Origin: Micromonospora narathiwatensis
GTDB lineage: Bacteria > Actinomycetota > Actinomycetes > Mycobacteriales > Micromonosporaceae
Assembly (NCBI RefSeq): GCF_900089605.1
Contig: NZ_LT594324.1
Coordinates: 2,356,001-2,420,000 of the forward strand
DNA: 64,000 nt
Direction: 5' to 3'
The first letter of the stretch is position 1; the number at the start of each line of letters is the position of its first letter. Under the pieces are notes generated by a model that made no database searches, was not told where the DNA came from, and saw only the letters and a program-made list of their open reading frames with translations. Of this stretch, positions 14,016-36,549 are shown in pieces. Position numbers and translations under genes: made by a program.

Positions 14016-14546
14016 TCAGGCGAGGGAGACCGTCACGCCGCCGGAGAACAGCGAGTCGTGGAGCTCGAGCTTGGCGAGCTTGACGTTCTTCGGGATGTCG
14101 AAGACGACGACGCCGGTGACCTGGTTGCCGGGGTTGATGTCGTTGAGGAACGTCTCGGCGTTCTTGTTGGCGTAGAGCGCGGCGCTGCTGTCCGACGAGT
14201 ACTCGGTGCCGTCGGCGGCGTACGCCTTTTGGCTGCTGCCGTCGAACATCTGCGACTCCTTGCCGATGTTCTTGACGTTGATGGTGACCAGGCAGAACTG
14301 GCCCTGCGCCTTCGCGCCCAGCATGTCGTTGCCGATCTTGGCGACGCCGCACTTCGACGACTTCACCGTGAACTCGAACTTCCCATCGCGGGCGGGCTGG
14401 CCGATCTTCGTGGTCTTCGGCTTGTCGTTGCCCTTGGCGCCGCCGGCGTCGGCCTTGCTGCCGGTGCCCTCGTCGGTGCTGCCGGCGCCGCAGCCCAGCG
14501 CGACGAGGGCGGTGGCGATCAGGGCGAGGGTTGTGGTCTTGCGCAT
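14016..14546 (-). CDS. DUF4352-like secreted lipoprotein
   Basis: A 176-residue lipoprotein starting MRKTTTLALIATALVALGCG, with the lipobox VALGC. After a Gly/Lys-rich linker it shows the DUF4352/telomeric-repeat-binding-like immunoglobulin fold seen in many Gram-positive surface proteins: KIGQPARDGKFEFTVKSSKC, then FCLVTINVKNIGKESQMFDG, and a final strand pattern TGVVVFDIPKNVKLAKLEL. The internal Cys pair could form a disulphide. The ATG at 14546 was preferred over an upstream in-frame start because AGGAGG lies just ahead of it and the signal peptide begins there. Its promoter region is shared divergently with the methylase-like gene. Confidence 0.85.
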   Translation of the reverse strand: MRKTTTLALIATALVALGCGAGSTDEGTGSKADAGGAKGNDKPKTTKIGQPARDGKFEFTVKSSKCGVAKIGNDMLGAKAQGQFCLVTINVKNIGKESQMFDGSSQKAYAADGTEYSSDSSAALYANKNAETFLNDINPGNQVTGVVVFDIPKNVKLAKLELHDSLFSGGVTVSLA

Positions 14547-14600
14547 CGATTCCTCCTGCTGTGAGCGTGGCGGCGTCAATGAGAGCATCATCTGTGAACT

Positions 14601-14626
14601 CTGTCAACGGACATGATGCTTGACAG
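14601..14626. promoter_or_regulatory. inverted repeat in a divergent promoter region
   Basis: CTGTCAA (14601-14607) and TTGACAG (14620-14626) form a perfect inverted repeat separated by 12 nt, between the DUF4352 lipoprotein gene (-) and the HTH-methylase-like gene (+). Each arm contains TTGACA reading outward, so it could be back-to-back -35 boxes or an operator. The + gene starts only 18 nt away, so a repressor acting there is more likely on that side. Confidence 0.45.
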
Positions 14627-14644: not shown

Positions 14645-16564
14645 GTGCAGGAGACACCGACCATCACGGCGGCGGAGATCGCCCGGCTCGCCGGGGTCGG
14701 TCGCGCCGCAGTCAGCAACTGGCGCAAGCGACACGTCGACTTTCCCGCCCCGGTAGGCGGCACCGCGGCCAGCCCGGAGTTCGACCTGACCCAGGTCGAG
14801 CAGTGGCTCCGCGCCCAGGGCAAGCTCCCCGAGCTGGCCACCGCCGAGCGGCTGTGGCGACGCCTCGCCGCGGCCAGCGAATCCCCGGCCGCCGGCCTTG
14901 CCGCCGTCGGCGCCCTGCTGCTGGCCCGGCAACGCGGCCAACGCCCCCGCCGACCAGCCGACCCGCACCTCAAACCGCTGCTACCCGACATCGACGCGCT
15001 CGCCGACGAACTCGGCCCGCAGGGCGCCTTCGACGAGCTGTGGCAACGCTTCTCCGCACCCGGACCCGGCCGCCCGTTCGCCACCCCCGACGACCTTGCC
15101 GACCTCATGGTCGAGCTCGCGGGCGTCGGCGGCGGCTCCGTCCTGGACCCCGCCGCCGGCTCCGGCGCCACCCTGCGGGCCGCCGTCCGCTCCGGCTGCA
15201 CCTCGGCCTACGGGCAGGAACTCGACGAGGATCTCGCCCGGCTCGCCGGACTGTGGCTGGCCCTACGGGAGGTGCCGGGGGAGGTCTGCACCGGCGACTC
15301 GCTGCGCGCCGACGCGTTCGCCGGCCGCACCTTCGACGCGATCGTCTGCCACCCACCGTTCGGCGTCACCAACTGGGGCGATGAGGAACTCGTCCATGAC
15401 CCACGCTGGATCGTCGGCACCACACCACGTACCGAACCGGAACTCGCCTGGGCCCAGCACGCCCTGGCCCACCTGCGGGTCGGCGGGCACGCCGTACTGC
15501 TGATGCCGCCCACCGTTGCCAGTCGCCGCGCCGGCCGACGCATCCGCGCCGAACTGCTGCGCCGTGGTGCCCTGCGCGCCGTCATCGCGCTCCCGCCCGG
15601 GGCCGCCGCGCCGCACGGCGTACCGCTGCACCTGTGGGTGTTGCGGCGGCCCGCGCCCGACGCGCCGCCACCGGCGCGGGCGCTGCTGGTCGACGCCGCA
15701 GGCGCCGACCTGACCGAGACGGGTCCGCGGATCCTCGCCGCGTGGCGGGCCTTCACCGTCGCCCCCGAGGCCGAGGTCGAGGAGGCCGGCTTCGCCCGCG
15801 CGGTCCCGGTGATCGAACTGCTCGACGAGGAGGTCGACCTCACCCCCGCGCGCCGGCAACCCGCCGTCGAGGGCAAGGCCACCGGAGAGCATCTGGTACG
15901 CACCAGAGAGCGTCTGGCCGCCATCGTGGGCGACCTGCCGGCGCTGATGCCGCAGGTCACGCCCGCGCCCGAGGGGCCGGACGGGGAGTTCCTGTCGGTG
16001 GGGGAGTTGGCCCGGGCCGGTGCGCTGCAACTGATCGGCCCCATCCGGGCCGCGTCAGCCGAGGGCGGCGAACCGTCAGCGGGCGGGCCGCCGGTACTGA
16101 CCGTGCAGGATGTGCTGAGCGGTGAAGGCCCTTCCGGGCGGGACGACGGCCGGCTCGGGCAGGAAATCCCGCTCGCGGTTGGGGACGTGGTCGTGCCGAT
16201 GATCGCCCGGCAGCTCACCGCGCGGGTGGTCACGACCGAGGGGGCGCTACTCGGGCGCAACCTCTACCTGCTGCGGCCCAATCCGGCCGCGCTGGACCCG
16301 TGGTTCCTCGCCGGGCAGCTGCGGACGTCGGCGAACGAGAAGCAGGCGTCGAGCCTGTCGGGGACGCTGCGCTTCGACATCCGGCGGGCGCAGGTGCGGC
16401 GGCTGTCGCTGGACGAGCAGCGGGCGCACGGTGAGGCGTTCCAGCGGCTGGACGCGTTTGAGGCCGCGATGCGGCAGGCAGCATCGCTCGGCGCGGAACT
16501 GGTTCAGCTCACCGCCGACGGGCTGGCCCGCGGCGCAGTCCGCCCTGACGGGGAGTCGCGGTGA
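14645..16564 (+). CDS. N6-adenine methylase-like protein with N-terminal HTH and altered catalytic motif
   Basis: A 639-residue protein. Residues 7-45 form a small helix-turn-helix (ITAAEIARLAGVGRAAVSNW). A helical linker leads to a type I/N6-adenine methylase domain: motif I LDPAAGSGATL at about 167, acidic motif YGQELDEDLA, and motif IV at residues 236-239, where the expected NPPF is HPPF (H236). The loss of the Asn that holds the target amino group suggests weak or no methyltransferase activity. The C-terminal third (LSVGELARAGALQLIGPI to VVVPMIARQLTARVVTTEG) resembles specificity-subunit-like DNA reading. The GTG at 14645 is taken as start because the HTH follows at once; the ribosome site overlaps it. 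It lies upstream of hsdM but is separated from it by a toxin pair on the other strand. It may be a DNA reader or regulator rather than an enzyme. Confidence 0.8.
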   Translation: MQETPTITAAEIARLAGVGRAAVSNWRKRHVDFPAPVGGTAASPEFDLTQVEQWLRAQGKLPELATAERLWRRLAAASESPAAGLAAVGALLLARQRGQRPRRPADPHLKPLLPDIDALADELGPQGAFDELWQRFSAPGPGRPFATPDDLADLMVELAGVGGGSVLDPAAGSGATLRAAVRSGCTSAYGQELDEDLARLAGLWLALREVPGEVCTGDSLRADAFAGRTFDAIVCHPPFGVTNWGDEELVHDPRWIVGTTPRTEPELAWAQHALAHLRVGGHAVLLMPPTVASRRAGRRIRAELLRRGALRAVIALPPGAAAPHGVPLHLWVLRRPAPDAPPPARALLVDAAGADLTETGPRILAAWRAFTVAPEAEVEEAGFARAVPVIELLDEEVDLTPARRQPAVEGKATGEHLVRTRERLAAIVGDLPALMPQVTPAPEGPDGEFLSVGELARAGALQLIGPIRAASAEGGEPSAGGPPVLTVQDVLSGEGPSGRDDGRLGQEIPLAVGDVVVPMIARQLTARVVTTEGALLGRNLYLLRPNPAALDPWFLAGQLRTSANEKQASSLSGTLRFDIRRAQVRRLSLDEQRAHGEAFQRLDAFEAAMRQAASLGAELVQLTADGLARGAVRPDGESR

Positions 16565-16566
16565 GG

Positions 16567-16968
16567 TCAGACCTCCAGGATCTCCCAGCCCTCGCCGAGC
16601 ACGACCTGGATCTGGTCGGGTCGCGAGGTGATGACCCCAGCCTGGTTGGCCAGCGCCACCCAGGCGGCGTGACCGGCACCGAGCCGGCCGGTGTGCCGGG
16701 CCATGCTGCCGATGGTCGGAGCCTCGTCGTCGTTGTCGAGGTCCAGCGCCGGCAGCACAGTACGCACGGCGGGGTTGCGGCGCAGCATCCGCAGCAGCTC
16801 GTGCTCGTCAGGGTCCAGCAGGCTGTACGCCTCGAGCAGGCAGGCCAGTGGCACCGCCACCGTGCCCTCGGCGTCGGCCACCTCGACGACCGTTTCACCG
16901 ACGGCCGGTACCCCATGCACGTACGCGAGCAGGGCCCCGGTGTCGAGCACCCAGTACGGCCGACTCAC
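16567..16968 (-). CDS. PIN-domain ribonuclease toxin (VapC-like)
   Basis: A 133-residue protein starting with GTG: SRPYWVLDTGALLAYVHGVP. The LDTGALLAY word with its first Asp and the distal acidic residues (for example LLEAYSLLDPDE and the C-terminal TSRPDQ) fit the PIN fold, a Mg2+-dependent RNase used as toxin by VapBC-type modules. The start overlaps the stop of the upstream small gene by 4 nt (GTGA), the classic antitoxin-toxin coupling. It is divergent from hsdM and convergent with the methylase-like gene, so the pair sits inside the restriction locus. Confidence 0.8.
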   Translation of the reverse strand: MSRPYWVLDTGALLAYVHGVPAVGETVVEVADAEGTVAVPLACLLEAYSLLDPDEHELLRMLRRNPAVRTVLPALDLDNDDEAPTIGSMARHTGRLGAGHAAWVALANQAGVITSRPDQIQVVLGEGWEILEV

Positions 16969-17276
16969 GCGGCCGAGCGCCGGTCCAGCTCCGCCCGCAA
17001 CTCGTCGGCCGGGCGGCCCAGCAGCTCCGCCACCCGGGCGATGGCAGCCTCGCGCGCCTCCGGCGTGACCTGGCGTGCGGCCAGCCGCTGCGCGGCGCCG
17101 ATCGGGTCGTACGGGAACTCGCCGTGGCCCGCAGCCCGCAAGGCGGCCCGCATGTCGTCGGATATCCGACGGCGGCGCAGCGCCTCGGTGACGTACGCGG
17201 AAACCTGGCGGGCGGGCAGCGCGTCCAGCTGCTCGGCCACGTCATCCGGGACGGAGATCGTCACACGCCGACTCAT
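16965..17276 (-). CDS. ribbon-helix-helix-type antitoxin
   Basis: A 103-residue protein starting MSRRVTISVPDDVAEQLDAL. The first 35 residues (basic strand RRVTISVPD, then a helix with VSAYVTEALRRRR) are a typical RHH/MetJ-Arc DNA-binding segment that would bind the promoter; the C-terminal helical part (AAIARVAELLGRPADELRAE) would wrap the PIN toxin. The gene probably has a leaderless mRNA: TAGGCT as -10 lies 7 nt before the ATG. It overlaps the toxin start by 4 nt. An inverted repeat CGGAG-N8-CTCCG sits just upstream as a likely autoregulatory operator. Confidence 0.8.
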   Translation of the reverse strand: MSRRVTISVPDDVAEQLDALPARQVSAYVTEALRRRRISDDMRAALRAAGHGEFPYDPIGAAQRLAARQVTPEAREAAIARVAELLGRPADELRAELDRRSAA

Positions 17277-17417: not shown

Positions 17418-19379
17418 GTGAGCACCAAGCACCAAGAGCTGGCGAACTTCATCTGGTCGGTGGCCGACCTGCTGCGCGGCGACTACAAGCAGTCCGAGTA
17501 CGGCCGGGTGATCCTCCCGCTGACCGTGCTGCGCCGCCTCGACTGCGTGCTCGAACCGACGAAGGACGCGGTGCTCGCCCGGCACCAGCAGCTCAAGGAC
17601 ATGGGCGTGCAGAACATGGACCCGGTGCTGCGCAAGACCGCCGGGCTGTCGTTCTACAACACCAGCGAGATGTCCTTCCGTAAGCTCCTCGGCGACCAGG
17701 ACCACGTCGCGCTCAATCTGCGCGCCTATATCGGCGGCTTCTCGCCCGGCGCGGTGGACGTGCTCGACAAGTACGGCTTCGACACCCAGATCAGCCGGCT
17801 CGCCGAGGCCGGGCTGCTCTATCAGGTGGTCGCCAAGTTCGCCGACATTGACCTGCACCCGGACGTCGTCTCCAACCACCAGATGGGCTACGTCTTCGAG
17901 GAGCTGATCCGCCGCTTCTCCGAAATCAGCAACGAGACCGCCGGTGAGCACTTCACCCCGCGTGAGGTCATCAAGCTGATGGTCAACCTGCTGCTCGCCC
18001 CCGACGAGGACGAACTGATCACGCCAGGCATCGTCCGCAAGGTCTACGACCCGGCCTGCGGCACCGGTGGCATGCTCACCGAGGCCCAGGAACACATCCA
18101 AGCCCACAACCCGCACGCCACCGTCGAGGTGTACGGGCAGGAACTCAACGGCGAGACGTACGCGATCTGCCGCTCGGACATGATGCTCAAGGGAGGCGAC
18201 CCGACCAAGATTGCCTTCGGTAACTCGTTCGGCCAGGACGGCCACGAGGGTGAGCGCTTCGACTACATGCTCGCCAACCCGCCGTTCGGCGTGGAGTGGA
18301 AGAAGGTCGAGAAGTTCATCAAGGACGAGCACGCCCGCGGTCACGCCGGCCGCTTCGGGGCCGGCCTGCCTCGGATCAACGACGGTTCGCTGCTCTTCCT
18401 CCAGCACATGATCTCGAAGATGAAGCGCCCTGAGGACGGCGGCAGTCGCCTGGCGATCGTCTTCAACGGCTCGCCGCTCTTCACCGGTGCTGCCGGGTCG
18501 GGCGAGTCGGAGATCCGCCGGTGGATCCTGGAGAACGACCTGCTCGAAGGCATCGTCGCCCTGCCTGACCAGCTCTTCTACAACACCGGCATTTCCACCT
18601 ACTTCTGGATCCTCACCAACCGGAAGGAGCCGGCCCGCCGACGCAAGGTCGTGCTGCTCGACGGCCGCGACTACTGGACCAAGATGCGCAAGAGCCTCGG
18701 CGACAAGCGCAAGATGCTCACCGACGAGCACATCGCCGAGCTGACTCGCGCCTACGTGGAGGCGCTGTCCATCGCGGACGACCCGGAGCACCCGCAGTAC
18801 GCCAAGGTGAAGGTCTTCAAGACCACCGACTTCGGCTACCAGCGCATCACCGTCGAGCGCCCGCTGCGCCTGCGCTTCGAGGTCACCGAGGAGACGGTCG
18901 CGCTGCTCGCGGAGGCGAAGGCGGTCCTCAAGTACGCCGAGCGGGAGTCGCTGCTGGCGGCGGTGAAGTCGCTGATCGGTACGCAGTCGAGGACGCGGGC
19001 TGAGTTTGCGATGAAGCTGAACGGGCTGGGGAAGCTGCCTGCGGCGGTGGAGAAGGCGGTGTGGGAGGCGTTCTCGGTCAGCGATCCGCAGGGGGAGGTG
19101 CAGACCGACCGCAAGGGCAACCCGCTGCCGGACCCTGATCTGCGCGACAACGAGAACGTGCCGCTGGACGAGGATGTCCACGACTACCTCAACCGCGAGG
19201 TGCTTCAGTACTTCCCCGACGCGTGGATTGACGAATCCAAGACCAAGATTGGTTGCGAGATCCCCTTCACGCGGAACTTCTACGTCTATCAGCCACCTCG
19301 ACGACTGTCCGAGATTGACGGCGAGATTAAGGCGCTTGAGGCAGAGATCCAGACACTGCTCGGCCAGGTGACCAAATGA
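17418..19379 (+). CDS. hsdM: type I restriction-modification methyltransferase subunit HsdM
   Basis: A 653-residue N6-adenine methyltransferase. The N-terminal HsdM helical domain (HQELANFIWSVADLLRGDYK to VILPLTVLRRLDC) is followed by the SAM-binding motif I YDPACGTGGML at about 210 and the intact catalytic motif NPPF at residues 287-290. The long C-terminal part ends in a coiled region (LSEIDGEIKALEAEIQTLLG) that joins the specificity subunit. It methylates adenine in the target site defined by HsdS and is also part of the restriction complex. The GTG start at 17418 follows an AAAGGAA site. The stop overlaps hsdS (ATGA). In contrast to the methylase-like protein upstream, all catalytic motifs are present. 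Confidence 0.95.
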   Translation: MSTKHQELANFIWSVADLLRGDYKQSEYGRVILPLTVLRRLDCVLEPTKDAVLARHQQLKDMGVQNMDPVLRKTAGLSFYNTSEMSFRKLLGDQDHVALNLRAYIGGFSPGAVDVLDKYGFDTQISRLAEAGLLYQVVAKFADIDLHPDVVSNHQMGYVFEELIRRFSEISNETAGEHFTPREVIKLMVNLLLAPDEDELITPGIVRKVYDPACGTGGMLTEAQEHIQAHNPHATVEVYGQELNGETYAICRSDMMLKGGDPTKIAFGNSFGQDGHEGERFDYMLANPPFGVEWKKVEKFIKDEHARGHAGRFGAGLPRINDGSLLFLQHMISKMKRPEDGGSRLAIVFNGSPLFTGAAGSGESEIRRWILENDLLEGIVALPDQLFYNTGISTYFWILTNRKEPARRRKVVLLDGRDYWTKMRKSLGDKRKMLTDEHIAELTRAYVEALSIADDPEHPQYAKVKVFKTTDFGYQRITVERPLRLRFEVTEETVALLAEAKAVLKYAERESLLAAVKSLIGTQSRTRAEFAMKLNGLGKLPAAVEKAVWEAFSVSDPQGEVQTDRKGNPLPDPDLRDNENVPLDEDVHDYLNREVLQYFPDAWIDESKTKIGCEIPFTRNFYVYQPPRRLSEIDGEIKALEAEIQTLLGQVTK

Positions 19380-20644
19380 GCGGTGGCTTGGGCGGCCCAG
19401 GTATGCGAAGAATCAAGACGGTTGTCACCAAGATTGGAAGTGGTAAGACTCCGAATGGTGGTGGCCGGTCTTACCAGGACGACGGAGTTATGTTTCTTCG
19501 AAGCCAAAACGTGCACTTCGCCGGCCTCCGGCTCGACGATGTTGCGTTTATTGGTGAGGATGTCCATCGAGAGATGAGAGCGTCCTGTGTGCTTTCAGGT
19601 GACGTGCTTCTCAATATTACGGGAGCGTCCCTCGGCCGGGTTGCGCGAGTGCCGGACAACTTCGGTGAAGCAAACGTTAACCAGCACGTATGTATTATTA
19701 GGCCAGGTGCTGGGGTCGATTGCCGCTTTCTCGCCTATGCGCTTTCGTCATCGAATGTTCAAGAGCAGATCGCCGCACTGCAAATGGGTGGCAATCGCGA
19801 CGGATTGAACTTCGAACAAGTGGGAAACCTGGCCATTCCGTTACCGTCGGAGACTAGCAAGCAGGAGCGCATCGCCGACTTCCTCGATGCCGAACTGGCT
19901 AGCGTTGATGCCTTGGTTGGGGCTAAGATGCGGCAGATTGCCCTGCTGCATGAGCGACGCGAAGCAATAGTGGCATCGCGTGTTTCGGAGCTATGCAACG
20001 ACCATGGCTCAGTTCCGTTGCGACGGATTTGGTTGGGAATCGAGCAGGGCTGGAGCCCGCAATGCGACGATGCTGAGGCTGACCGCGATAACTGGGCTGT
20101 TCTTCGGACCAGCGCTGTCAGCTCCGGCAGATTCGATCCACTGGCACACAAACGACTTCCAGTCGATGTTCAGCCAGACTTGCGCTATGTCATTAACGAT
20201 GGCGATCTCTTGTTAACAAGGGGAAGTGGCTCTGCGGCGATGGTCGGGGTTGCGGCAGTTGCAGATACAGATGGGAGGCGTCTGCTGCTGAGTGACCTTC
20301 TCTATCGGGTGAGACTGCAGCCGGGGTGGCCAAGCGGGCTAGTGGCCTCGGTGATTGGTAGTCGTCCAGCAAGGGAGCAGATTTCGTTGCTGCTTAGGGG
20401 GCAGTCAGGGCAGACGATTAAGCTGCGCGGCCAAGATGTGGGCGAGATCCTAATCCCTTGTGTACCGCCTGATCGCCGCGGGGCGATCGCAGCCGAGATC
20501 GCGGTCACTTCTACTTCACACGTTAGCGCTGCCAGAAAGATTGAAAATAGCCTTGCCCTCCTGCATGAGCGACGGCGTGCGTTGATTACCGCAGCCGTAA
20601 CCGGACGCCTTGATCTACCAGCGGCTTGGGAGGCGGTCGCATGA
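19376..20644 (+). CDS. hsdS: type I restriction-modification specificity subunit HsdS
   Basis: A 422-residue protein with two target-recognition domains separated and followed by conserved helices. The first TRD runs to about residue 165; the helix repeat QERIADFLDAELASVDALVG and LHERREAIVASRVSELC follow. The second TRD is about 205-365, and the repeat recurs as KIENSLALLHERRRALITAA ending in VTGRLDLP, the standard HsdS C-terminus. It dictates the bipartite DNA site. The gene is visibly richer in A/T at third codon positions than hsdM and hsdR on either side, as expected for specificity genes that are exchanged by recombination. It overlaps both neighbours by 4 nt. Confidence 0.93.
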   Translation: MSGGLGGPGMRRIKTVVTKIGSGKTPNGGGRSYQDDGVMFLRSQNVHFAGLRLDDVAFIGEDVHREMRASCVLSGDVLLNITGASLGRVARVPDNFGEANVNQHVCIIRPGAGVDCRFLAYALSSSNVQEQIAALQMGGNRDGLNFEQVGNLAIPLPSETSKQERIADFLDAELASVDALVGAKMRQIALLHERREAIVASRVSELCNDHGSVPLRRIWLGIEQGWSPQCDDAEADRDNWAVLRTSAVSSGRFDPLAHKRLPVDVQPDLRYVINDGDLLLTRGSGSAAMVGVAAVADTDGRRLLLSDLLYRVRLQPGWPSGLVASVIGSRPAREQISLLLRGQSGQTIKLRGQDVGEILIPCVPPDRRGAIAAEIAVTSTSHVSAARKIENSLALLHERRRALITAAVTGRLDLPAAWEAVA

Positions 20645-23600
20645 GCCCAGTACATGGGGAGCAAACCTTCGAGTCGGCAGTCGAAGGTTCGCTGCTTGGC
20701 TCGGGTTGGCTGCGTGGCGCGTCGAGTAACTGGGACCGGCAATTGGGACTCGACACTGCTGAGCTGTTCGCGTTCGTCGGCAGAACGCAGCCGGACGAGT
20801 GGACGAAGCTGCTGGCCTACCACGGGAACAACCCGGATGAGGCGCAGCGGCACTTCGCTCAGTACCTCGCCAAGCAGGTCGACGAGCGTGGCCCCCTCGA
20901 CGTCCTCCGTCGTGGTGTCAAGGACAAGGGTGTCCTGATCCGCCTTGCCTACTTCAAGCCAGCCCACGCCATCACCGACGATGCGCTCAAGCTCTACCGC
21001 GCCAACCGCCTCACCGTCACCCGGCAGCTCGCCTACTCGACGAGCAACAACAACACCCTCGACCTGGTCCTCTTCGTCAACGGCATCCCGCTCGCCACGG
21101 CCGAGCTGAAGAACCCGCTGACCGGCCAGACTGTCGAGGACGCGAAGGGGCAGTACCGCAAGGACCGAGACCCGAGGGAACTGCTCTTCGCGCGGCGTAC
21201 CCTTGTGCACTTCGCCGTGGATCCCGACCTGGTCTTCGTCACCACGAAGCTGGCCGGCGACAAGACCCGGTTCCTGCCCTTCAACACCGGCTCCGACGGT
21301 CCGGGCGTCTCTGGCGGCGCCGGCAACCCGCCGGCGGGCGCCTCCGGTTATCGCAGCTCGTACCTGTGGGAGCAGATCTGGCACCCGGACACCTGGATGG
21401 ACCTGGTCCGGCGGTTCCTGCACACCGACAAGGAATCGCGGAACCTGATCTTCCCGCGCTACCACCAGTGGCATGCGGTCACCCAGCTCACCGACCATGC
21501 CGCCCGCAACGGTTCCGGCCACAACTACCTGGTCATGCACTCCGCCGGGTCGGGCAAGTCGAACACCATTGCCTGGTTGGCGCACCGGCTCTCCAGCCTG
21601 CACACCGCACCAGCGCTCGACGAGGACGCGCGGGCGAAGGGGCTGCGCCCCAACGAGCCGGTCTTCGACAAGGTCATCATCATCACCGACCGGGTGGTGC
21701 TGGACCGGCAGTTGCAGGACACCGTCTTCCAGTTCGAGCACGTGCCCGGCGTGGTGCAGCGGATCGACAAGGACTCCGCCCAGCTCGCCGCCGCCCTCCA
21801 GGGCGAGACCGCGAAGATCATCATCACCACGATGCAGAAGTTCCCCTACATCCTCGACAAGGTGCAGGGGCTCAAGGGCAAGCGGTTCGCGGTCATTGTC
21901 GACGAGGCGCACTCGTCGCAGTCCGGCGACTCGGCCGCCGCGCTGAAAAAGGTGCTGCTCAAGCTCGGCAGCGACGACGTGGACGAATCGGGCGATCTGC
22001 TCACCGCGTCGGCCCTGGCGCGCGGCCGGCACGAGACGCTGTCGTACTTCGCGTTCACCGCCACCCCGAAGCCGAAGACCCTCGAACTCTTCGGCACGCC
22101 GCACCCGGTCACCGGCAACCCGCAGCCGTTCCACACGTACTCGATGCGCCAAGCCATCGAGGAGGGCTTCATCCTCGACGTGCTGCGCAACTACCTGACC
22201 TACAAGGCGTACTGGAAGCTGGCCAACGCCAACCCCGACGACCCGGAGGTCGACCCGAAGAAGGCCGGCGCCCAGCTTGCCCGCTTCGCCAGCCTGCACC
22301 CCACCATGCAGGCGCAGAAGGCCGAGATCATCGTCGAGCACTTCCGCAAGCACACCGCGCCGCAGCTCGGCGGGCGCGCCAAGGCCATGGTGGTCACCGG
22401 CTCCCGCGAGGCCGCCGTCCGCCTGCACACCGCCATCCGCAAGTACGTCGAGATGCATCAGTACGTCGGCTGCGACTCCCTGGTCGCCTTCTCGGGCGAG
22501 CTGGAAATCGACGGCGTCGAGCACACCGAGGCGCGGATCAACGGGTTCAGCGAGGGCGAACTGCCCGAGAAGTTCGCCTACACCGCCGCCGACGACAAGC
22601 ACGCCGGCACGCCCAGGGCGAAGCAGGACACCGAGTACAAGATCCTGGTCGTCGCCGAGAAGTATCAGACCGGCTTCGACCAGCCGCTGCTCACCACCAT
22701 GTACGTGGACAAGCTGCTCAAGAGCGTCGCCGCGGTGCAGACCCTGTCCCGGCTCAACCGCACCCACCCGCTCAAGGCCCAAGGCGACGTCTTCGTACTC
22801 GACTTCGTCAACGAGGCCGGCGACATCGCCGAGCAGTTCAAGCCCTACTTCGAAACCGCCGCCACCACCCCCACCGACCCCAACCTGCTCTACACCGCCC
22901 AGAACGCGGTGACCGGCTACCCGATCCTGGTCGACTCCGAGATGCAGGCGTACGCCGAGGCGCTGCTCGCCGCCGAGCAGAAGGCGACCAGCGACACCGC
23001 GCTCCAGCGGGCCCACGCCTCCCTCTACCGCTTCACCGAGCCGGCCGTTCAGCGCTTCAAGGCCTTGGCCGAGGACGACCAGGAGGCCGCGGACGACTTC
23101 CGGTCCGCGCTGCGCGACTACACCCGGATGTACGCATTCCTCAGCCAGATCGTGCCGTATCACGATGAGGATCTGGAGCGCCTCTACCTGTACGGGCGGG
23201 CGCTGCTCAACCGGCTGCCGCGTCGGCAGGACCCCTCCGTCGACATCGGTGAGGTGCAGCTGACCCACCTGCGGGTCAGCAAGACCGGCGAGCACGACGC
23301 GTCGCTGTCGCCGGAGGGGGAGCAGATGCTGCCCGGCTTCGTCGGCGGGGGAGCGGGCCGGCAGCACGACCCGGAGAAGGTCGCGCTGTCCGAGCTGATC
23401 GACGCGTTCAACGACAAGTTCGGCATCGGGCTGGGCGAGGCCGACAAGGTCTGGGTCGAGCAGCAGATTGTCGCCCTGGCCGAGGATGGCACGCTCGAAG
23501 CTGCCGCGCTGGTCAACGACGAAAGCAACTTCGGCGTCGTCTGCGACAAGCGGATCGAGGACGTGATCCTGTCCCGGCACGACGACAACGGCAAGCTCAT

Positions 23601-23700
23601 GCAGCGCTACCTCGACGACGACAACCTGCGCTCGCAGCTCAACCAGTTCGCGCGCCGCCAGGCATACCAGATGATCCGCCGCCGCAAGGGCATCGCCTGA
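20641..23700 (+). CDS. hsdR: type I restriction endonuclease subunit HsdR
   Basis: A 1019-residue restriction motor and nuclease. The N-terminal PD-(D/E)XK nuclease has D141 and E155-L-K157 (LDLVLFVNG then ATAELKNPLTG), then the QxxxY-type word AKGQYRKDRDPRELLF. The SF2 helicase core follows: Walker A HSAGSGKSNTIAWLAHRL near 300, DEAH at about 421-424, FAFTATPKPKTLELFGTP, and the later motif QTGFDQPLLTTMYVDKLL with QTLSRLNRT. The C-terminal helical region binds HsdM. It translocates unmodified DNA and cuts at a distance. The start at ATG 20641 was chosen because it overlaps the hsdS stop (ATGA) in the usual way; an upstream in-frame ATG at 20626 lies inside hsdS. Confidence 0.95.
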   Translation: MSPVHGEQTFESAVEGSLLGSGWLRGASSNWDRQLGLDTAELFAFVGRTQPDEWTKLLAYHGNNPDEAQRHFAQYLAKQVDERGPLDVLRRGVKDKGVLIRLAYFKPAHAITDDALKLYRANRLTVTRQLAYSTSNNNTLDLVLFVNGIPLATAELKNPLTGQTVEDAKGQYRKDRDPRELLFARRTLVHFAVDPDLVFVTTKLAGDKTRFLPFNTGSDGPGVSGGAGNPPAGASGYRSSYLWEQIWHPDTWMDLVRRFLHTDKESRNLIFPRYHQWHAVTQLTDHAARNGSGHNYLVMHSAGSGKSNTIAWLAHRLSSLHTAPALDEDARAKGLRPNEPVFDKVIIITDRVVLDRQLQDTVFQFEHVPGVVQRIDKDSAQLAAALQGETAKIIITTMQKFPYILDKVQGLKGKRFAVIVDEAHSSQSGDSAAALKKVLLKLGSDDVDESGDLLTASALARGRHETLSYFAFTATPKPKTLELFGTPHPVTGNPQPFHTYSMRQAIEEGFILDVLRNYLTYKAYWKLANANPDDPEVDPKKAGAQLARFASLHPTMQAQKAEIIVEHFRKHTAPQLGGRAKAMVVTGSREAAVRLHTAIRKYVEMHQYVGCDSLVAFSGELEIDGVEHTEARINGFSEGELPEKFAYTAADDKHAGTPRAKQDTEYKILVVAEKYQTGFDQPLLTTMYVDKLLKSVAAVQTLSRLNRTHPLKAQGDVFVLDFVNEAGDIAEQFKPYFETAATTPTDPNLLYTAQNAVTGYPILVDSEMQAYAEALLAAEQKATSDTALQRAHASLYRFTEPAVQRFKALAEDDQEAADDFRSALRDYTRMYAFLSQIVPYHDEDLERLYLYGRALLNRLPRRQDPSVDIGEVQLTHLRVSKTGEHDASLSPEGEQMLPGFVGGGAGRQHDPEKVALSELIDAFNDKFGIGLGEADKVWVEQQIVALAEDGTLEAAALVNDESNFGVVCDKRIEDVILSRHDDNGKLMQRYLDDDNLRSQLNQFARRQAYQMIRRRKGIA

Positions 23701-23728
23701 CTTTCGACCACAGCCGAGAGGAGGACGG

Positions 23729-24511
23729 GTGTCCCCGTCCGAGCCCCCCTTCCACCTTTGGATTGCCGCGGACGAAACGCGGACGGTGGTCGCTCTCGCC
23801 CCGCTCAAGGTGTCCGGGGCACCGGTCAAGCACGAGTGGGGAAGCATCACGGACCTGCGAGCCGTACCGGTGCCCGAGAAGGCTCCCAACGTCGCCGGCA
23901 TCATCGTGCTCGCCACGCTGGTGCTGATCGGTGCCTTCGGGCTGTGCCTCAGCGGCGCGCCATTCCTGGTGATCTTCTTCCTGGCTGCGCTCGTGTTGGG
24001 CATCGGCCTGGCGGCGGCGTTGTCGAAGGCGTCTCCTTCTCAGGTGGTGGCACCGGACCAGGTAGCGTTCCCGAACCTTCACCAGACGCTCGACGAGGAG
24101 GAGCGCGAGGACTTCCTCGACCTGGTGGAGTCGGCCGAGCGAGCCGGCCGCGCCCTGCCGGGCGTGGAAAGGGTGCTCGATCCGGCAGAAGGAGGAGAGC
24201 TGCTCGCCCAGGTCTTGTGGGAGGCAGCCGACGTGCTCAGCCGCCGGCAGCAGCTACGCCCCCAGGTGGTGCGCCAGCAGCAGCCGACACCGACCGCCTC
24301 GCCGACTAGTCCTGCCGCCCAGGCGCTGGCCGAACAGCGGGAAAAGGCGAGGGCGCTGTGGGAGGAGACCGAGGTGGAGCTGTCCCGGATCCGCACCGCG
24401 ATCGAGCTCGCCGCAGTGGCCGCAGAGAACGCCGCTCACGACCCGAGCGCCCACGATGCCGTTCGTGAGGCGTATCGGGAGTTGGCTGACGTGTACGGCG
24501 AGCGTTTCTAG
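23729..24511 (+). CDS. two-helix membrane protein in the extended RM operon, unknown function
   Basis: A 260-residue protein with GTG start at 23729, preceded by GAGAGGAGG. A soluble N-terminal part of about 50 residues (FHLWIAADETRTVVALAPLK) is followed by two adjacent membrane helices (IIVLATLVLIGAFGLCLSGA and FLVIFFLAALVLGIGLAAAL) and a long C-terminal helical, Gln/Glu/Arg-rich region with coiled-coil character (SRIRTAIELAAVAAENAAHD). It begins 28 nt after hsdR and ends 10 nt before the kinase, so it belongs to the same transcript. No family was recognised. It could anchor the following kinase or sense membrane damage. Confidence 0.7.
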   Translation: MSPSEPPFHLWIAADETRTVVALAPLKVSGAPVKHEWGSITDLRAVPVPEKAPNVAGIIVLATLVLIGAFGLCLSGAPFLVIFFLAALVLGIGLAAALSKASPSQVVAPDQVAFPNLHQTLDEEEREDFLDLVESAERAGRALPGVERVLDPAEGGELLAQVLWEAADVLSRRQQLRPQVVRQQQPTPTASPTSPAAQALAEQREKARALWEETEVELSRIRTAIELAAVAAENAAHDPSAHDAVREAYRELADVYGERF

Positions 24512-24521
24512 GGGGAACCGG

Positions 24522-26138
24522 ATGCAGGCGCAGGAGCGCGTCGCTGAGCGGTACGAGCTGACGTACCCCCTCGGCCACGGAGGTATGGGCGAGGTTTGGG
24601 CCGGCTTCGACGAGAAGCTGGACCGGCCCGTCGCCATCAAGTTCCTCCGCAAGCTCACCATCCCTGAGAGCGAGCGGGACGCCGCGGTCGAGCGGTTCAT
24701 GCGGGAGGCCCGGGTCACCGCACGACTCGACCACCCCGGCGTGCCCAGCGTCCACGACGTGGGCCACCACAGCGACGACCTCTACATCGTCATGCAGCTC
24801 GTGCCGGGCATGCTCCTCTCCGACCTGATCGCCGAACATGGCCGGCTCGCCGTACCCTGGTCTGCCGCCATCGGGGCGCAGATCTGCTCGGTGCTCGCGG
24901 TGGCGCACGCCGCCTCGCTGGTGCACCGCGACCTGAAACCGCAGAACGTGATGGTCACCCCGACCGGTTCGGTGAAGGTGCTCGACTTCGGCGTGGCGGC
25001 GTTGCTCGGTGCTGACGTGCCCAGGCTGACCGCCACCAGCCACACCCTCGGCACGCCCACCTACATGGCGCCCGAGCAGGCACTTAACAGCGCGGTCGGT
25101 CCGCGCGCCGACCTCTACGCGCTCGGCTGTGTCCTCTTCGAGTTGCTGACCGGCGACCCGCCCTACCGGGCCGACAATCCGCTCGGCATGCTGCACCGGC
25201 ACATGAGCGACCCGATCCCGTCGGTCGCTGAACACCGTGCCGGCGTACCCGACGGCCTAGTGCAGCTCGTCTTCCGGCTGCTCGCGAAGGACCCGCAGCA
25301 CCGCCCCGCCTCGGCCACGGAGGTCTACGAGATCCTGGCACCGCTCGGCAGGGTCGAGCAGGACTCGGCCGGAGACCTCGCGATGACCGTCGCCGACGGG
25401 CAGCCGGTCGACCCGACCATGCCCTACCGCTATCCCTTTGGCCCCCTGCCACCCCGCACGCCGCTGCCACCGACACGAGTCGACGTCGTCCAGCCACGGG
25501 TCGCAGCGGAGGTCATCGAGCCGCCGTCCCTCGACGAGCTGGCCGAGGTGGAAGACCGCGCCTGGGAGTTGGCCGAGGAAGAGCGATTCACCCAGGCCGC
25601 TGCCCTGATCGAGACGGCGCTGCGTCCGCTGCGGAAGGGGCATGCCGCCAAGCAGCCGAGGGTCCTGGAGTTGCGGCTAAACCTGGCCAACCTGTACGTC
25701 CTCGCCGGAGCGTTCCGGCAGGCGCTGCCCGAATTCCAGCGACTCATTCCCGACTTGGCCGAACGCCCGGTGCCGGATGAGGAACTGATCTGGCAGTGCC
25801 GGCAGCAGGCGGCGGTCTGCCAGGCGGAGCTGGGCGAGGCAAGCGGCGCCTTGATCGAGCTCCGCGCGCTCCTCGCCGAGGAACAGCAGGTGATGCCGCC
25901 GGACGCGCCGGAGTTGTTCCCGCTACGGCAGCAGATCGCCATGCTCGCCGCCGGCGTAGGCGAGGTGATTGATGCCCGACGTGAGCTGACTGAGCTGTGG
26001 CGTGACGTGAGCGCCCGGTACGGGCCGGAATCAGCGCAGGCGACCGAGATCAAGGCTCTGCTGACTCACCTGGAACGGCTGGGGGAGAGCGTGCCTGGGG
26101 TGGCCGACAGAACTGCTGGACGACACGGGACGGCGTGA
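24522..26138 (+). CDS. serine/threonine protein kinase with C-terminal helical-repeat region
   Basis: A 538-residue Hanks-type kinase. The glycine loop is G18-x-G20-x-x-G23 (PLGHGGMGEVW), catalytic Lys K40 (VAIK), the catalytic loop HRDLKPQN with D137, and DFG at 155-157. The activation segment ends GTPTYMAPEQ. After residue about 290 there is a Pro-rich linker and then a TPR-like helical region (VLELRLNLANLYVLAGAFRQ) to the end. There is no membrane helix in the kinase itself; the preceding gene encodes one. ATG 24522 follows GGGGGAA. It lies inside a restriction operon, between a membrane protein and a RAMA nuclease, which suggests regulation of restriction by phosphorylation. Defence kinases are known elsewhere, but this arrangement is not one I recognise. 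Confidence 0.9.
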   Translation: MQAQERVAERYELTYPLGHGGMGEVWAGFDEKLDRPVAIKFLRKLTIPESERDAAVERFMREARVTARLDHPGVPSVHDVGHHSDDLYIVMQLVPGMLLSDLIAEHGRLAVPWSAAIGAQICSVLAVAHAASLVHRDLKPQNVMVTPTGSVKVLDFGVAALLGADVPRLTATSHTLGTPTYMAPEQALNSAVGPRADLYALGCVLFELLTGDPPYRADNPLGMLHRHMSDPIPSVAEHRAGVPDGLVQLVFRLLAKDPQHRPASATEVYEILAPLGRVEQDSAGDLAMTVADGQPVDPTMPYRYPFGPLPPRTPLPPTRVDVVQPRVAAEVIEPPSLDELAEVEDRAWELAEEERFTQAAALIETALRPLRKGHAAKQPRVLELRLNLANLYVLAGAFRQALPEFQRLIPDLAERPVPDEELIWQCRQQAAVCQAELGEASGALIELRALLAEEQQVMPPDAPELFPLRQQIAMLAAGVGEVIDARRELTELWRDVSARYGPESAQATEIKALLTHLERLGESVPGVADRTAGRHGTA

Positions 26139-26150
26139 GAGGCGAGAAGC

Positions 26151-27293
26151 ATGTTCGAACTGGAAGATGCGGTCAAGCAGTGCGTCGAGCGAGTGGCGCG
26201 GTTCCGCCGGCAACACCAGCGCATTGGCGAGCAGAACACCAAGGCTGGGCTCATCGAGCCGATTATCGGGGCGCTGGGCTGGGATCTGTTTGACCCAGAC
26301 GAGGTGCACCGTGAGTACCGGCGGCGGGGCGTTGACAATCCTGTGGACTATGCCCTGCTGCTCTTGCGCACCCCCCGGCTGTTCATCGAGGCGAAGGGGC
26401 TGGGCGAAAATCTCGACGACCCGCGCTGGGCCAACCAGACGATCGGCTACGCGACCATGGCTGGGGTGGAGTGGGTCGCCTTGACCGACGGCGCGGAGTG
26501 GCGGGTCTACAACGCGCACGCTCCGGTGCCCATCGAGCACAAGCTCTTCCGGGCGGTCCGGCTCGAGGACGACGTCGATGCAGCCCTCGAGCTGTTGTGC
26601 CTGCTCAGTAAGCAGAACATGGGGGACAACCGGATTGAGGACCTCTGGAAGGGATTCTTCGTCGACCGGCAGGTCCACACCGAGCTGACTGATCTGTTCG
26701 CTGGATCGGACCCCGCATCCGAACTGGTTGACCTGCTTGATAGCCGGATGCCAAGGCTGAGCCGTGAGGAGATCCGGCAGAGCCTCATCCGCGCGCGGGC
26801 CACCTTCGACTTTCCGATGTCGGCGGCAGTCGCCGCTCCGCCGGCCCAGCGGCAATCCCTTCCGCCCCAGGCGTACGAGCCTCCTACACAGCGGGCGGCG
26901 CCCGAGCCGGTCCCGGTGGCATCGGCGTATCCGTCGCCTGTAACGAGAAGTTCGAAACGAGCACCACACGTGACGCCGGACGAGCGGAGGCTGAAGCTCG
27001 TGGATCTCCTCGCCGCCGGGCGCCTACGGCCGGGCACCACGCTCTTCGGCCGCTACCTCGGGCAGCAACACACTGCGGAACTGCTAGCGGATGGCCGGGT
27101 GCGGTACCGGGGGGAGGTTCACAACTCACCCTCCAGCGCAGGGGAGGCGGTGAAGATCGCGATCCATGGCCGGGACATCACCGACAGCCGCAAGGCGACC
27201 GACGGACTCGACTTCTGGCAGGCGCAGGATGCGGTGACGGGTGACGTGGTCACGCTTAAGGAGATCCGCCGTCGCGTCGCGTCGGGGAGGTAG
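26151..27293 (+). CDS. HsdR_N-type PD-(D/E)XK nuclease fused to a RAMA-like domain
   Basis: A 380-residue protein. Residues 25-160 match the type I restriction N-terminal nuclease family found as a stand-alone protein: NTKAGLIEPIIGALGWDLFD, then D66 (NPVDYALLLL) and E80-A-K82 (RLFIEAKGLG), a PD-(D/E)XK site, then VEWVALTDGAEWRVYNAHA. A Pro-rich linker (220-270) leads to a C-terminal domain (LVDLLAAGRLRPGTTLFGRY, AELLADGRVRYRGEVHNSPS, DGLDFWQAQD) resembling RAMA, a domain proposed to read modified adenine in DNA. It lies 12 nt after the kinase and 2 nt before the DUF6308 gene. It may cut DNA according to its methylation state, or help HsdR. The RAMA call is from pattern recognition and needs a profile search. 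Confidence 0.75.
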   Translation: MFELEDAVKQCVERVARFRRQHQRIGEQNTKAGLIEPIIGALGWDLFDPDEVHREYRRRGVDNPVDYALLLLRTPRLFIEAKGLGENLDDPRWANQTIGYATMAGVEWVALTDGAEWRVYNAHAPVPIEHKLFRAVRLEDDVDAALELLCLLSKQNMGDNRIEDLWKGFFVDRQVHTELTDLFAGSDPASELVDLLDSRMPRLSREEIRQSLIRARATFDFPMSAAVAAPPAQRQSLPPQAYEPPTQRAAPEPVPVASAYPSPVTRSSKRAPHVTPDERRLKLVDLLAAGRLRPGTTLFGRYLGQQHTAELLADGRVRYRGEVHNSPSSAGEAVKIAIHGRDITDSRKATDGLDFWQAQDAVTGDVVTLKEIRRRVASGR

Positions 27294-27295
27294 CG

Positions 27296-27973
27296 ATGTC
27301 GTCCGGTTGGCTTGGACTGCGCGACCTCATTGCCGTGCTCGATGACGAGCACTCAGGCACCGCCCTCCGGCGCTACTTCGCGCCCGGCGCTTTCACTGGC
27401 AGCCAGTTCGAGGCGTTGGGCGGCAGCCCAAAGGCCCTGCACCGGGACGCGGTGGTCGCCGAGGACCTGATCGCTGTTGAGCTGCTGAACGCGCGCGTCC
27501 CTCCCGGGGTTGCTCTCGACCTCCTGCAGGGCGATCTTGGTCAGCGGATCAGCGACGAACTGCGCAAGATCCCGATCGGCGTGGACCTGAGCGACGAGAG
27601 TGCGAGGACGTACATCGAGGACGGTGGTCCAGCAGAGCTCGCGTGGCGGCTGCTGACCAACCGTCATGGCGTGAACAAGGCCATCGCTGGGAAACTCCTG
27701 GCCCGCAAACGTCCGAGGCTCATCCCGGTTTACGACAGTGTCGTGGCGTGCGCGCTTCGTGGCCGCCCTGGGTTTTGGCTCTGGCTACACGAGCAACTCC
27801 GAGCTGAGGATCTTCTCATGACGCGGATGTTGCGGAAGCTACGGGTCGAGGGCGATGTCCCGACGCATGTATCCGACATACGCATTTTCGACATCGTTTT
27901 CTGGATGCGTCATAGAGGTGACCACAGAAGTCGTGGCTGTCCCGGGCTGCCGAATGTCGGCCCAAGCCTATGA
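27296..27973 (+). CDS. DUF6308 family protein
   Basis: A 225-residue protein starting MSSGWLGLRDLIAVLDDEHS. Characteristic words are RRYFAPGAFTGSQFEALGG, AEDLIAVELLNARVPPGVAL, GKLLARKRPRLIPVYDSVV and IFDIVFWMRHRGD. A paralogue with the same words in the same order is encoded at 35875-36549. The function is unknown. It is the last gene of the extended type I RM operon, starting 2 nt after the RAMA nuclease. The conserved KLLARKRPxLxPVYDxVV block, with basic residues and an Asp, may be a nucleic-acid-binding or active site. Its 3' end overlaps the convergent GntR gene by 6 nt. Confidence 0.8.
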   Translation: MSSGWLGLRDLIAVLDDEHSGTALRRYFAPGAFTGSQFEALGGSPKALHRDAVVAEDLIAVELLNARVPPGVALDLLQGDLGQRISDELRKIPIGVDLSDESARTYIEDGGPAELAWRLLTNRHGVNKAIAGKLLARKRPRLIPVYDSVVACALRGRPGFWLWLHEQLRAEDLLMTRMLRKLRVEGDVPTHVSDIRIFDIVFWMRHRGDHRSRGCPGLPNVGPSL

Positions 27974-33671: not shown

Positions 33672-33702
33672 TCTCCCACCACCCACCCCGGAGGGTCCGA
33701 CC

Positions 33703-35859: not shown

Positions 35860-35874
35860 TCCCGAAGGAGAAGC

Positions 35875-36549
35875 ATGAAGGAGCCCCTGGCCTTCGCCGA
35901 GATCCTGGCCGTGCTGGATGATTCTCGCTCGGTCCCCGACCTTCAGCGCTACTTCCTGGCGGATGGCGATGCGGCATTCACCGGTGGGCAGTTCGACCGA
36001 CTTGGCGGCGGCGGGTGCCGTCCCGAAATCGCGAACATCCTTACCGCCGAGGACCTGATCGCGGTGGAACTGCTCAGTGTGGAGGTGCGGCCGCGCCCGG
36101 CGCTCGACCTGTTGCAGGGGCAGCTCGGCCGAAGGCTGGCGGCGGACTTGGCGAACATCCCCGTCAACGTCGAGCTGGGCGCTGACGACGCGTTCCCGCT
36201 GATCGTGAAGGGTGGTTACGCGGACAAGGCGTGGTGGACGCTGCGCGATGCGGACGACATCGGCTGGGTCATCGCCGGCAAGCTGCTCGCCCGCAAACGC
36301 CCGAAGCTCGTGCCGGTGTACGACGAGGTGGTGTCCTGCGCACTCGGCACCGGAAGCGGCTTCTGGGAGTGGCTGCACGGCAAGCTCCGCGAGGAAGGCA
36401 ATGTCCTGGCACAGCGCCTCGACGCCCTGCACGGGAAGGCCGGCCTGCCGGCGGCGGTCAACCGCCTTCGGGTTCTTGACGTCGTGTTCTGGATGCGACA
36501 CCGAGACGGCCATGGCGGTAGGGCGTGCCCCGGGCTGCGGCTGCCCTGA
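35875..36549 (+). CDS. DUF6308 family protein, second copy
   Basis: A 224-residue paralogue of the protein at 27296-27973. It shares the same ordered words: LQRYFLADGDAAFTGGQFDR, AEDLIAVELLSVEVRPRPAL, GKLLARKRPKLVPVYDEVVS, WLHGKLREEGN and VLDVVFWMRHRDG. Start ATG 35875 follows AAGGAGAAG. It is the third gene of the GmrSD-UvrD operon, as the first copy is the last gene of the kinase/RAMA extension of the type I RM operon. Recurrent association with two unrelated DNA-targeting systems suggests a shared accessory role. Function unknown. Confidence 0.8.
   Translation: MKEPLAFAEILAVLDDSRSVPDLQRYFLADGDAAFTGGQFDRLGGGGCRPEIANILTAEDLIAVELLSVEVRPRPALDLLQGQLGRRLAADLANIPVNVELGADDAFPLIVKGGYADKAWWTLRDADDIGWVIAGKLLARKRPKLVPVYDEVVSCALGTGSGFWEWLHGKLREEGNVLAQRLDALHGKAGLPAAVNRLRVLDVVFWMRHRDGHGGRACPGLRLP

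Follow-up and report, generated by a model that had tools for sequence, protein, structure and literature searches.

A 64,000-nucleotide stretch of Micromonospora narathiwatensis DNA (contig NZ_LT594324.1, positions 2,356,001 to 2,420,000; hereafter the window) carries a type I restriction-modification locus whose conserved core comprises an upstream gene for a methylase-like protein, which we call front, the subunit genes hsdM, hsdS and hsdR, and a gene for a Ser/Thr protein kinase. An earlier note on this DNA had proposed a different unit, running from hsdM, hsdS and hsdR through a membrane protein, the kinase, an HsdR_N/RAMA nuclease and a DUF6308 protein. The link to the kinase holds, but the unit differs from the proposed one and reaches upstream. 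The explanation that we favour, at roughly even chances given what sequence comparison can tell, is that the locus encodes type I restriction-modification under the control of a dedicated pseudo-methylase/kinase module.

As a description of gene order the seven-gene run was borne out, all genes lying on the + strand with the overlaps and gaps that the earlier note gave. It consists of hsdM (17418..19379), hsdS (19376..20644, overlapping hsdM by 4 nucleotides (nt)), hsdR (20641..23700, 1019 amino acids, overlapping hsdS by 4 nt), the membrane protein gene (23729..24511, 260 amino acids, after a gap of 28 nt), the kinase gene (24522..26138, 538 amino acids, gap 10 nt), the gene for the HsdR_N-like nuclease and RAMA protein (26151..27293, gap 12 nt) and the DUF6308 gene (27296..27973, gap 2 nt). 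The overlap of hsdR with hsdS holds for the ATG at 20641, an earlier TTG at 20626 also being in the open reading frame list, and the gap before the kinase holds for the ATG at 24522, with an earlier ATG listed at 24456. The families N6_Mtase and HsdM_N, Methylase_S, HSDR_N and SWI2_SNF2, Pkinase, RAMA and DUF6308 were found above their Pfam cut-offs, while the membrane protein, which has two hydrophobic stretches by eye, gave no Pfam family above cut-off. The limits of the run were wrong, since it omits the core front gene upstream (14645..16564, + strand) and takes in three accessory genes.

Among 200 genomes of the same family, 35 carry a close hsdM (E 1e-150 or better). We examined 26 loci, the window included, which are all those listed whose hsdM match reaches 60% identity and spans 500 residues or more; a partial hsdM of 372 residues that lies at the end of a contig (locus L113 of genome G002) was excluded, and identical sequences (L004/L014, L002/L048 and the window/L171) were counted once. 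A kinase follows hsdR in 22 of the 26 loci, or 22 of the 24 that are decidable by contig, those of G163 and G177 ending before the kinase position; for G020 and G105, hsdR and kinase lie in an adjoining stretch (L100, L101), and the kinase match is split in two pieces in L017 and L031. The front gene was also matched in 22 of the 26 (not in L018, L028, L032 and L072). The membrane gene is present in only 3 of these loci, the RAMA gene in 2 and the DUF6308 gene beside them in 1, counts that reject the seven-gene unit as the core. Thus, in the co-occurrence check that the earlier note had suggested, hsdM, hsdS and hsdR stay together with the kinase within this hsd clade, while the three accessory genes part from them. 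Spacing within the core is often short: the gap between front and hsdM is -4 to 94 nt in 22 of the 29 distinct loci listed, with a 4-nt overlap in L017, L022, L023 and L024, and that between hsdR and kinase is 5-114 nt in 16 of 27. Outside this clade the arrangement is rare. A phylum-wide hsdR search matched 44 of 396 genomes at 49 places, and of the 33 loci examined, several of them short contigs, only L074 has both kinase and front gene. The genome of the window holds a second hsdM-hsdS-hsdR set (L063, G000:C1:5957000-5975500; hsdM about 51% identical), and neither a kinase nor a front match was found in the stretches of this set or of L068-L071.

In the family, 81 of 200 genomes gave a match to the front gene itself (E 1e-50), as did 61 of 394 in the class (E 1e-70); these searches scored few candidates per genome, such that paralogues may be missed. 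We examined 37 of roughly 100 front-matched places in the family, loci chosen by a kinase match being excluded from the count, and 31 of them have a kinase either within that stretch or in the one that follows it on the contig. With 17 kinases in this 6.6-Mb genome, a 20-kb stretch is expected to hold one about 5% of the time, and the linkage counts set against this figure reject the kinase as a chance neighbour. Plasmid and phage records, with a match in 4 and 1 of them respectively, were not informative.

Front relatives open four kinds of locus. The first is that of the window, with hsdM-hsdS-hsdR-kinase behind front. In the second, front is followed by a small kinase, an SNF2 helicase, an Eco57I-type methylase, a Druantia-E-like helicase, UvrD and, at the end, a further kinase (L122 with L111; L117 with L118, where other genes intervene; and L115 as far as its stretch reaches). 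The third has a kinase-helicase fusion, a DpdE-like helicase and a DrmMI-like methylase (L114, L116, L120), and the fourth is a DISARM locus, drmD-drmMI-drmA-drmB-drmC, with a second front-type gene and a kinase at its end (L123 with L105, L126 with L104). The gene content of these loci suggests that the front/kinase pair is a reusable control unit for antiviral systems. The fuller form of this idea, in which an actinobacterial immune unit of a dead methylase, acting as reader and autorepressor, plus a kinase is placed on type I, DISARM and Druantia/Dpd-like payloads, the kinase gating HsdR at a threonine-bearing insert, is one that we put forward tentatively and hold to be somewhat less likely than its opposite.

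The front protein (639 amino acids) combines a helix-turn-helix (HTH) at residues 1-60, an N6-methylase fold, and an S-type target recognition domain (TRD) and conserved helix at about 481-639. It scores 106.7 bits against Pfam N6_Mtase, and 24.4 and 92.5 bits against PADLOC mad1 and mad2. By sequence profile its closest solved relative is the M1 subunit of the non-canonical type I system PacII (7vru, E 6.7e-49), and residues 525-635 match type I S subunits (5ybb, 3okg) in a sequence profile search of the PDB. An AlphaFold model was obtained with a mean predicted local confidence (pLDDT) of 85.2 and a predicted template modelling score (pTM) of 0.62; in the fold search 7eew, an intact methylase solved with Ocr, came first by E-value (1.9e-22 over 622 columns) at a low TM-score of 0.35/0.37, and 7vs4/7vru superpose better than 7eew on the methylase part of the model.

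The catalytic pocket of the front protein is degenerate. We compared 97 aligned front-type proteins with 53 HsdM of the same loci. The S-adenosylmethionine (SAM) motif I is kept, with its Asp in 96 of 97. The first position of motif IV is N, D or S in 51 of 97 and H in 29, and the strict motif [NDS]PP[FYW] is found in 27 front relatives versus a canonical motif in 52 of 53 HsdM. The acidic motif X residue, found within GEHFTP in HsdM, is kept by all 53 HsdM and by 2 of 97 front proteins, both of them poorly aligned RM2 proteins. The window protein has HPPF at residues 236-239 in place of the strict motif IV and lacks the acidic motif X residue. The ratio of non-synonymous to synonymous substitution (dN/dS) of front is 0.11-0.25 in seven comparisons, some of them across payload types, and thus indicates purifying selection. 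Because motif I is kept while motifs IV and X are degenerate, and because the gene is under purifying selection, the front protein is probably a SAM- and DNA-binding reader that has lost methylation rather than a writer. A tRNA-Ser called by ARAGORN at 15665-15751 falls inside the front reading frame and is a probable false positive. A possible separate system was seen at L134-L147, where a front-type methylase of about 700 amino acids has NFPF as motif IV, with a kinase of about 420 amino acids some 1 kb upstream in 13 of the 14 loci and a UvrD match beyond in 7.

An inverted repeat, TGTCAA-N12-TTGACA, lies at 14602..14625 (+ strand), 43 bases before the front gene, and is a candidate operator; this pattern has one match in the window versus 0.01 expected. 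A slightly looser form, TGTCAA-N12..18-TTGAC, occurs in 21 of 206 loci, one of which is the window's own L171. In 19 of 97 front genes it precedes the called start by 28-61 bases; L026 and L074 also have it a short way upstream of their front match, at a distance from the called start that falls outside this range. With the front protein divided into five segments and compared in 13 pairs, the HTH was the best conserved segment in 12 (82-95% identical; 60% in the other pair). From the conserved inverted repeat together with the conserved HTH, it is a natural inference that the front protein regulates its own gene through the candidate operator.

The restriction-modification subunits appear intact. 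HsdM is above the Pfam cut-offs for N6_Mtase and HsdM_N and has the canonical NPPF and GEHFTP, with TIGR00497 scoring 93.6, below its cut-off of 242.75. HsdS scores 35.0 against Methylase_S (cut-off 22), a target recognition domain being found, and is about 30% identical between the window and L014, whereas front, HsdM, HsdR and kinase are 78-93% identical there. HsdR is above cut-off for HSDR_N and SWI2_SNF2 and has intact motor and nuclease motifs (TIGR00348 190.8, below the cut-off of 284.55); GSGK and DEAH are present in 63 of 63 aligned HsdR. The HsdR of this clade also carries a specific insert at about residues 646-656, with the pattern [AG]-[YA]-T-x-x-D-D, directly before a conserved strand (LVVA or LIVA in most). 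Its threonine, Thr648 in the window (codon 22582..22584, + strand), is a putative phospho-acceptor conserved in 31 of 31 HsdR with the insert. A kinase is present in the stretches examined for 28 of these 31; the other 32 HsdR of the alignment have no insert and come from loci in which no kinase was detected. Thr648 is the best candidate for a target of the kinase; an HsdM insert at residue 449 showed no conserved Ser/Thr.

The kinase scores 162 bits against Pfam Pkinase, and its C-terminal part is TPR-like, with TPR matches below cut-off. The catalytic Lys, HRD and DFG are all present in the window protein, and of 91 kinases aligned, including a dozen unlinked ones from the same genome, 90 have the Lys and 90 have DFG/DLG, so that the kinase is predicted to be active. 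In a tree of 94 kinase domains, including 16 housekeeping rows, the 66 pair-linked kinases (the small type excepted) are compatible with one clade (approximately unbiased test, p 0.79), and with support 100 the window kinase is placed in a group of 11 rows, 7 of restriction type and 4 of Druantia type.

These observations lend themselves to a model in which HsdM and HsdS would mark host DNA and HsdR would cut DNA that is unmarked. The front protein would bind its own operator via the HTH, DNA via the TRD and SAM in the retained pocket, and would thereby act as an autorepressor that reports the state of the DNA or of infection. The kinase would relay this signal by phosphorylating the payload, most likely HsdR at Thr648 in the motor insert, and so gate restriction; that HsdR is the substrate, the direction in which the switch works and a role against phage we infer. 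For EcoKI, phosphorylation of HsdR is cited only as a possible control in the accessible part of PMC12707154. The membrane protein, RAMA nuclease and DUF6308 protein would be optional add-ons.

Several observations weigh against this explanation. With regard to linkage, two close hsdM loci (G102, G057) have neither kinase nor front gene, RM2-type loci L002 and L003 have a front-like gene without a kinase, and no kinase was seen in 6 of the 37 front-chosen loci (L124, at a contig end, L135, L148, L151, L152 and L153). In the five loci of other families with both front and hsdM, a kinase was found downstream in 2 (L201, L202), was not reached in 2 (L203, L204) and was absent within 4 kb in L205. 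In the window, 853 nt and a toxin-antitoxin (TA)-like pair on the opposite strand separate front from hsdM, and because of this pair the two may not share a transcript. With regard to HsdR, three of the proteins with the insert have no kinase match: none was seen downstream in the 8 kb read for L018 or the 4 kb read for L205, and the L203 stretch stops within hsdR. Because the insert is clade-specific, shared descent alone could explain the link between Thr648 and kinase, and a second threonine, T685, is also nearly clade-specific. As for front, beyond the 27 relatives with the strict motif IV another 19 have NxPF, giving 46 with [NDS]-x-P-[FYW], so that the family is not uniformly dead and some relatives may still be enzymes; NLPY is present in active KsgA-type enzymes, and L122, 81% identical to front, has NPPF. 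In the kinase tree several own-genome rows were read in the wrong frame or strand, no HRD-type motif was found for 7 of the 16 housekeeping rows, and several rows sit on very long branches, so the support values make the split from housekeeping kinases look more certain than it is. Finally, the correlation between front distances and kinase distances in 40 loci (r 0.76, reached in 0 of 2000 permutations) includes species relatedness and kinase-chosen loci.

The foremost alternative is that front is a working second methylase in a dual-methylase type I system, either M1M2S-like or as an independent marker, with the kinase as an accessory. The closeness to PacII M1 by sequence and to the intact methylase 7eew by fold speaks for it, as do the kept SAM motif and the relatives with strict or NxPF forms of motif IV. 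However, PacII M1 and M2 keep AGEF/NPPF and AAEF/NPPY, respectively, according to the accessible part of PMC9613975, where the window protein has HPPF and a non-acidic motif X. Moreover, front carries its own S-type half and is also found in DISARM and Druantia-like loci that have no hsd match and already hold other methylases, 17 of the 18 distinct loci listed having an NPP motif and the remaining one, L124, being cut off by the end of its contig. We consider a working second methylase unlikely.

Less probable again is that the association is one of location only, front anchoring a chromosomal defence hot spot in which the kinase is one of many genes and has no functional coupling. Consistent with such a hot spot, a DUF4352 gene stands beside front in many loci while the payload behind it changes, and GmrSD, UvrD and DUF6308 genes are also found at the window locus. 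Yet front and hsdM, and hsdR and kinase, overlap or are closely spaced, and in six loci chosen by kinase, of which five contain drmABC, 32-50 nt separate front from the kinase. The association also recurs in other families, since 29 class-wide front loci read with 1.5-kb flanks (L172-L200) hold a kinase in 13 cases and hsdM in 5. We regard the version of the earlier note, with all seven genes as one unit, the membrane protein tethering the kinase and the RAMA nuclease supplementing restriction, as very improbable, for while the spacing of 2-28 nt in the window is tight and the membrane-kinase-RAMA order is kept in L004, L005 and L006, the accessory genes are as scarce as given above and the 102-nt gap between hsdR and kinase in L015 is too short for a membrane gene.

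The accessory genes have distributions of their own. No hsd match was found in the stretches around 14 distant relatives of the membrane protein (25-33% identity), which does not support the gene as a tether of the kinase. Nor is the description of the kinase as membrane-associated borne out, as no membrane segment was seen in it by eye and most of its relatives are without the membrane gene. In the predicted nuclease, the RAMA domain was confirmed (64.7 bits, Pfam); HSDR_N is below cut-off (20.0 versus 25.1 bits), yet D...EAK is present in 11 of 11 aligned RAMA proteins, that of the window among them. No match was found for this protein among PDB sequences, and its nearest named relatives are from Micromonospora. 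The 13 RAMA loci on which its distribution rests (12 plus the window) comprise 5 with this hsd family, 3 beside another hsd family and 5 without an hsd match. RAMA domains are predicted sensors of N6-methyladenine (6mA), yet the study in PMC9963953, as far as its accessible part goes, found no 6mA preference; the protein is plausibly a back-up nuclease sensing adenine methylation. The DUF6308 protein (200.8 bits, Pfam) gave a weak, all-helical model (pLDDT 74.2) for which the best-ranked PDB structures are DNA glycosylases, with E-values of 0.74 and above, a lead only. DUF6308 genes also follow GmrSD or UvrD genes, even within the window. Of the 26 close hsdM loci, 8 hold an AIPR gene (Pfam PF10592); this abortive-infection gene lies within or beside the hsd operon in L018-L022, L031, L032 and L073, and between hsdS and hsdR in at least 4.

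Between front and hsdM, a toxin-like gene (16567..16968, - strand; PIN-like by inspection, no Pfam match) and an antitoxin-like ribbon-helix-helix gene (16965..17276, - strand; RHH_5/RHH_1 below Pfam cut-off) form the inserted TA pair, which lies outside the core. The pair recurs in L004/L014 (toxin-like 92%, antitoxin-like 98% identity), with antitoxin fragments in L015. On the other side of front, and divergent from it, is a DUF4352 gene (14016-14591, - strand); its relatives adjoin front in many genomes, where they may delimit a defence hot spot on its left side. A second defence-like cluster at 31128-36549 holds a GmrSD protein (847 amino acids, with an alkyltransferase-type DNA-binding domain), a UvrD-like helicase (718 amino acids) and a second DUF6308 gene (35875-36549, 48% identical to the first). 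In L050 close relatives of this trio again form a group; there they lie downstream of another payload, the one that follows front in the same genome (L116).

The wider interest of the locus lies in the old question of how bacteria keep restriction off their own DNA and switch it on upon infection. A kinase in the same operon and a clade-specific, invariant threonine in HsdR make control by HsdR phosphorylation testable by single mutations. If front is indeed a reader, many genes annotated as 'N-6 DNA methylase' beside defence systems may be misannotated sensors, and a single pair controlling several systems would make an unusual example of plug-in immune signalling.

Among known systems, the locus is most plainly like type I restriction-modification, having all three subunits with intact motifs, overlapping genes and a fast-diverging HsdS; it differs in the flanking HTH/pseudo-methylase gene and kinase and in the HsdR insert with Thr648. 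From PacII and its non-canonical M1M2S arrangement, which it resembles in having two different methylase-like subunits, it is set apart by a front protein with its own HTH, S-type half and degenerate catalytic motifs; the pocket of a second M subunit (NPPY/NPPF, AAEF/AGEF) was not found in front, which argues against membership. With DISARM class 1 the link is through relatives, in which a front protein opens and a front-type gene plus kinase closes the drmD-drmMI-drmA-drmB-drmC locus. To our knowledge a kinase is not among the known components of DISARM, and the matches listed for 10 proteins of the window, which for four of these are the best 25 families, include no Drm family, which speaks against membership; DrmA matches occur elsewhere in this genome. 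The kinase domain also matches PD-T4-6 profiles, among other defence kinases, at up to 322 bits, but the best matches cover residues 1-283 of the window kinase and the partner genes are others.

In literature searches judged by titles and abstract openings, no description of the front/hsd/kinase arrangement was found, and an earlier one is possible. The accessible part of PMC12839542 treats BREX-related systems and mentions neither DISARM, HsdM nor DrmA. MADS (methylation-associated defence system) likewise brings together a methylase, an S-type subunit and a kinase, and the N-terminus and methylase part of front match mad1 and mad2, the kinase mad6 and HsdS mad5. The window locus differs in having a full HsdR, and Mad2, Mad5 and Mad6 were below their NCBIfam cut-offs (54.8/720, 45.4/400 and 140.2/460), so that membership was rejected; mad3, mad4, mad7 and mad8 were absent from the PADLOC matches listed for the 10 proteins (the best 25 families for four of them). 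The paper on MADS reportedly mentions 'MADS-like' systems, and the window locus may already be described there. Pgl/BREX type 2 likewise combines a Hanks-type kinase (PglW) with a methylase (PglX), while restriction in the window is by HsdR; membership was rejected here too, as the kinase scores 83.3 for PglW, where the cut-off is 990, and the matches listed for the 10 proteins include no further Pgl family. PglW is the nearest proven case that we know of in which a kinase is required in a methylase-based defence. Its kinase activity is required for Pgl, as stated in the accessible part of PMC4365076. The window locus thus resembles Pgl and MADS while falling outside the tests for both.

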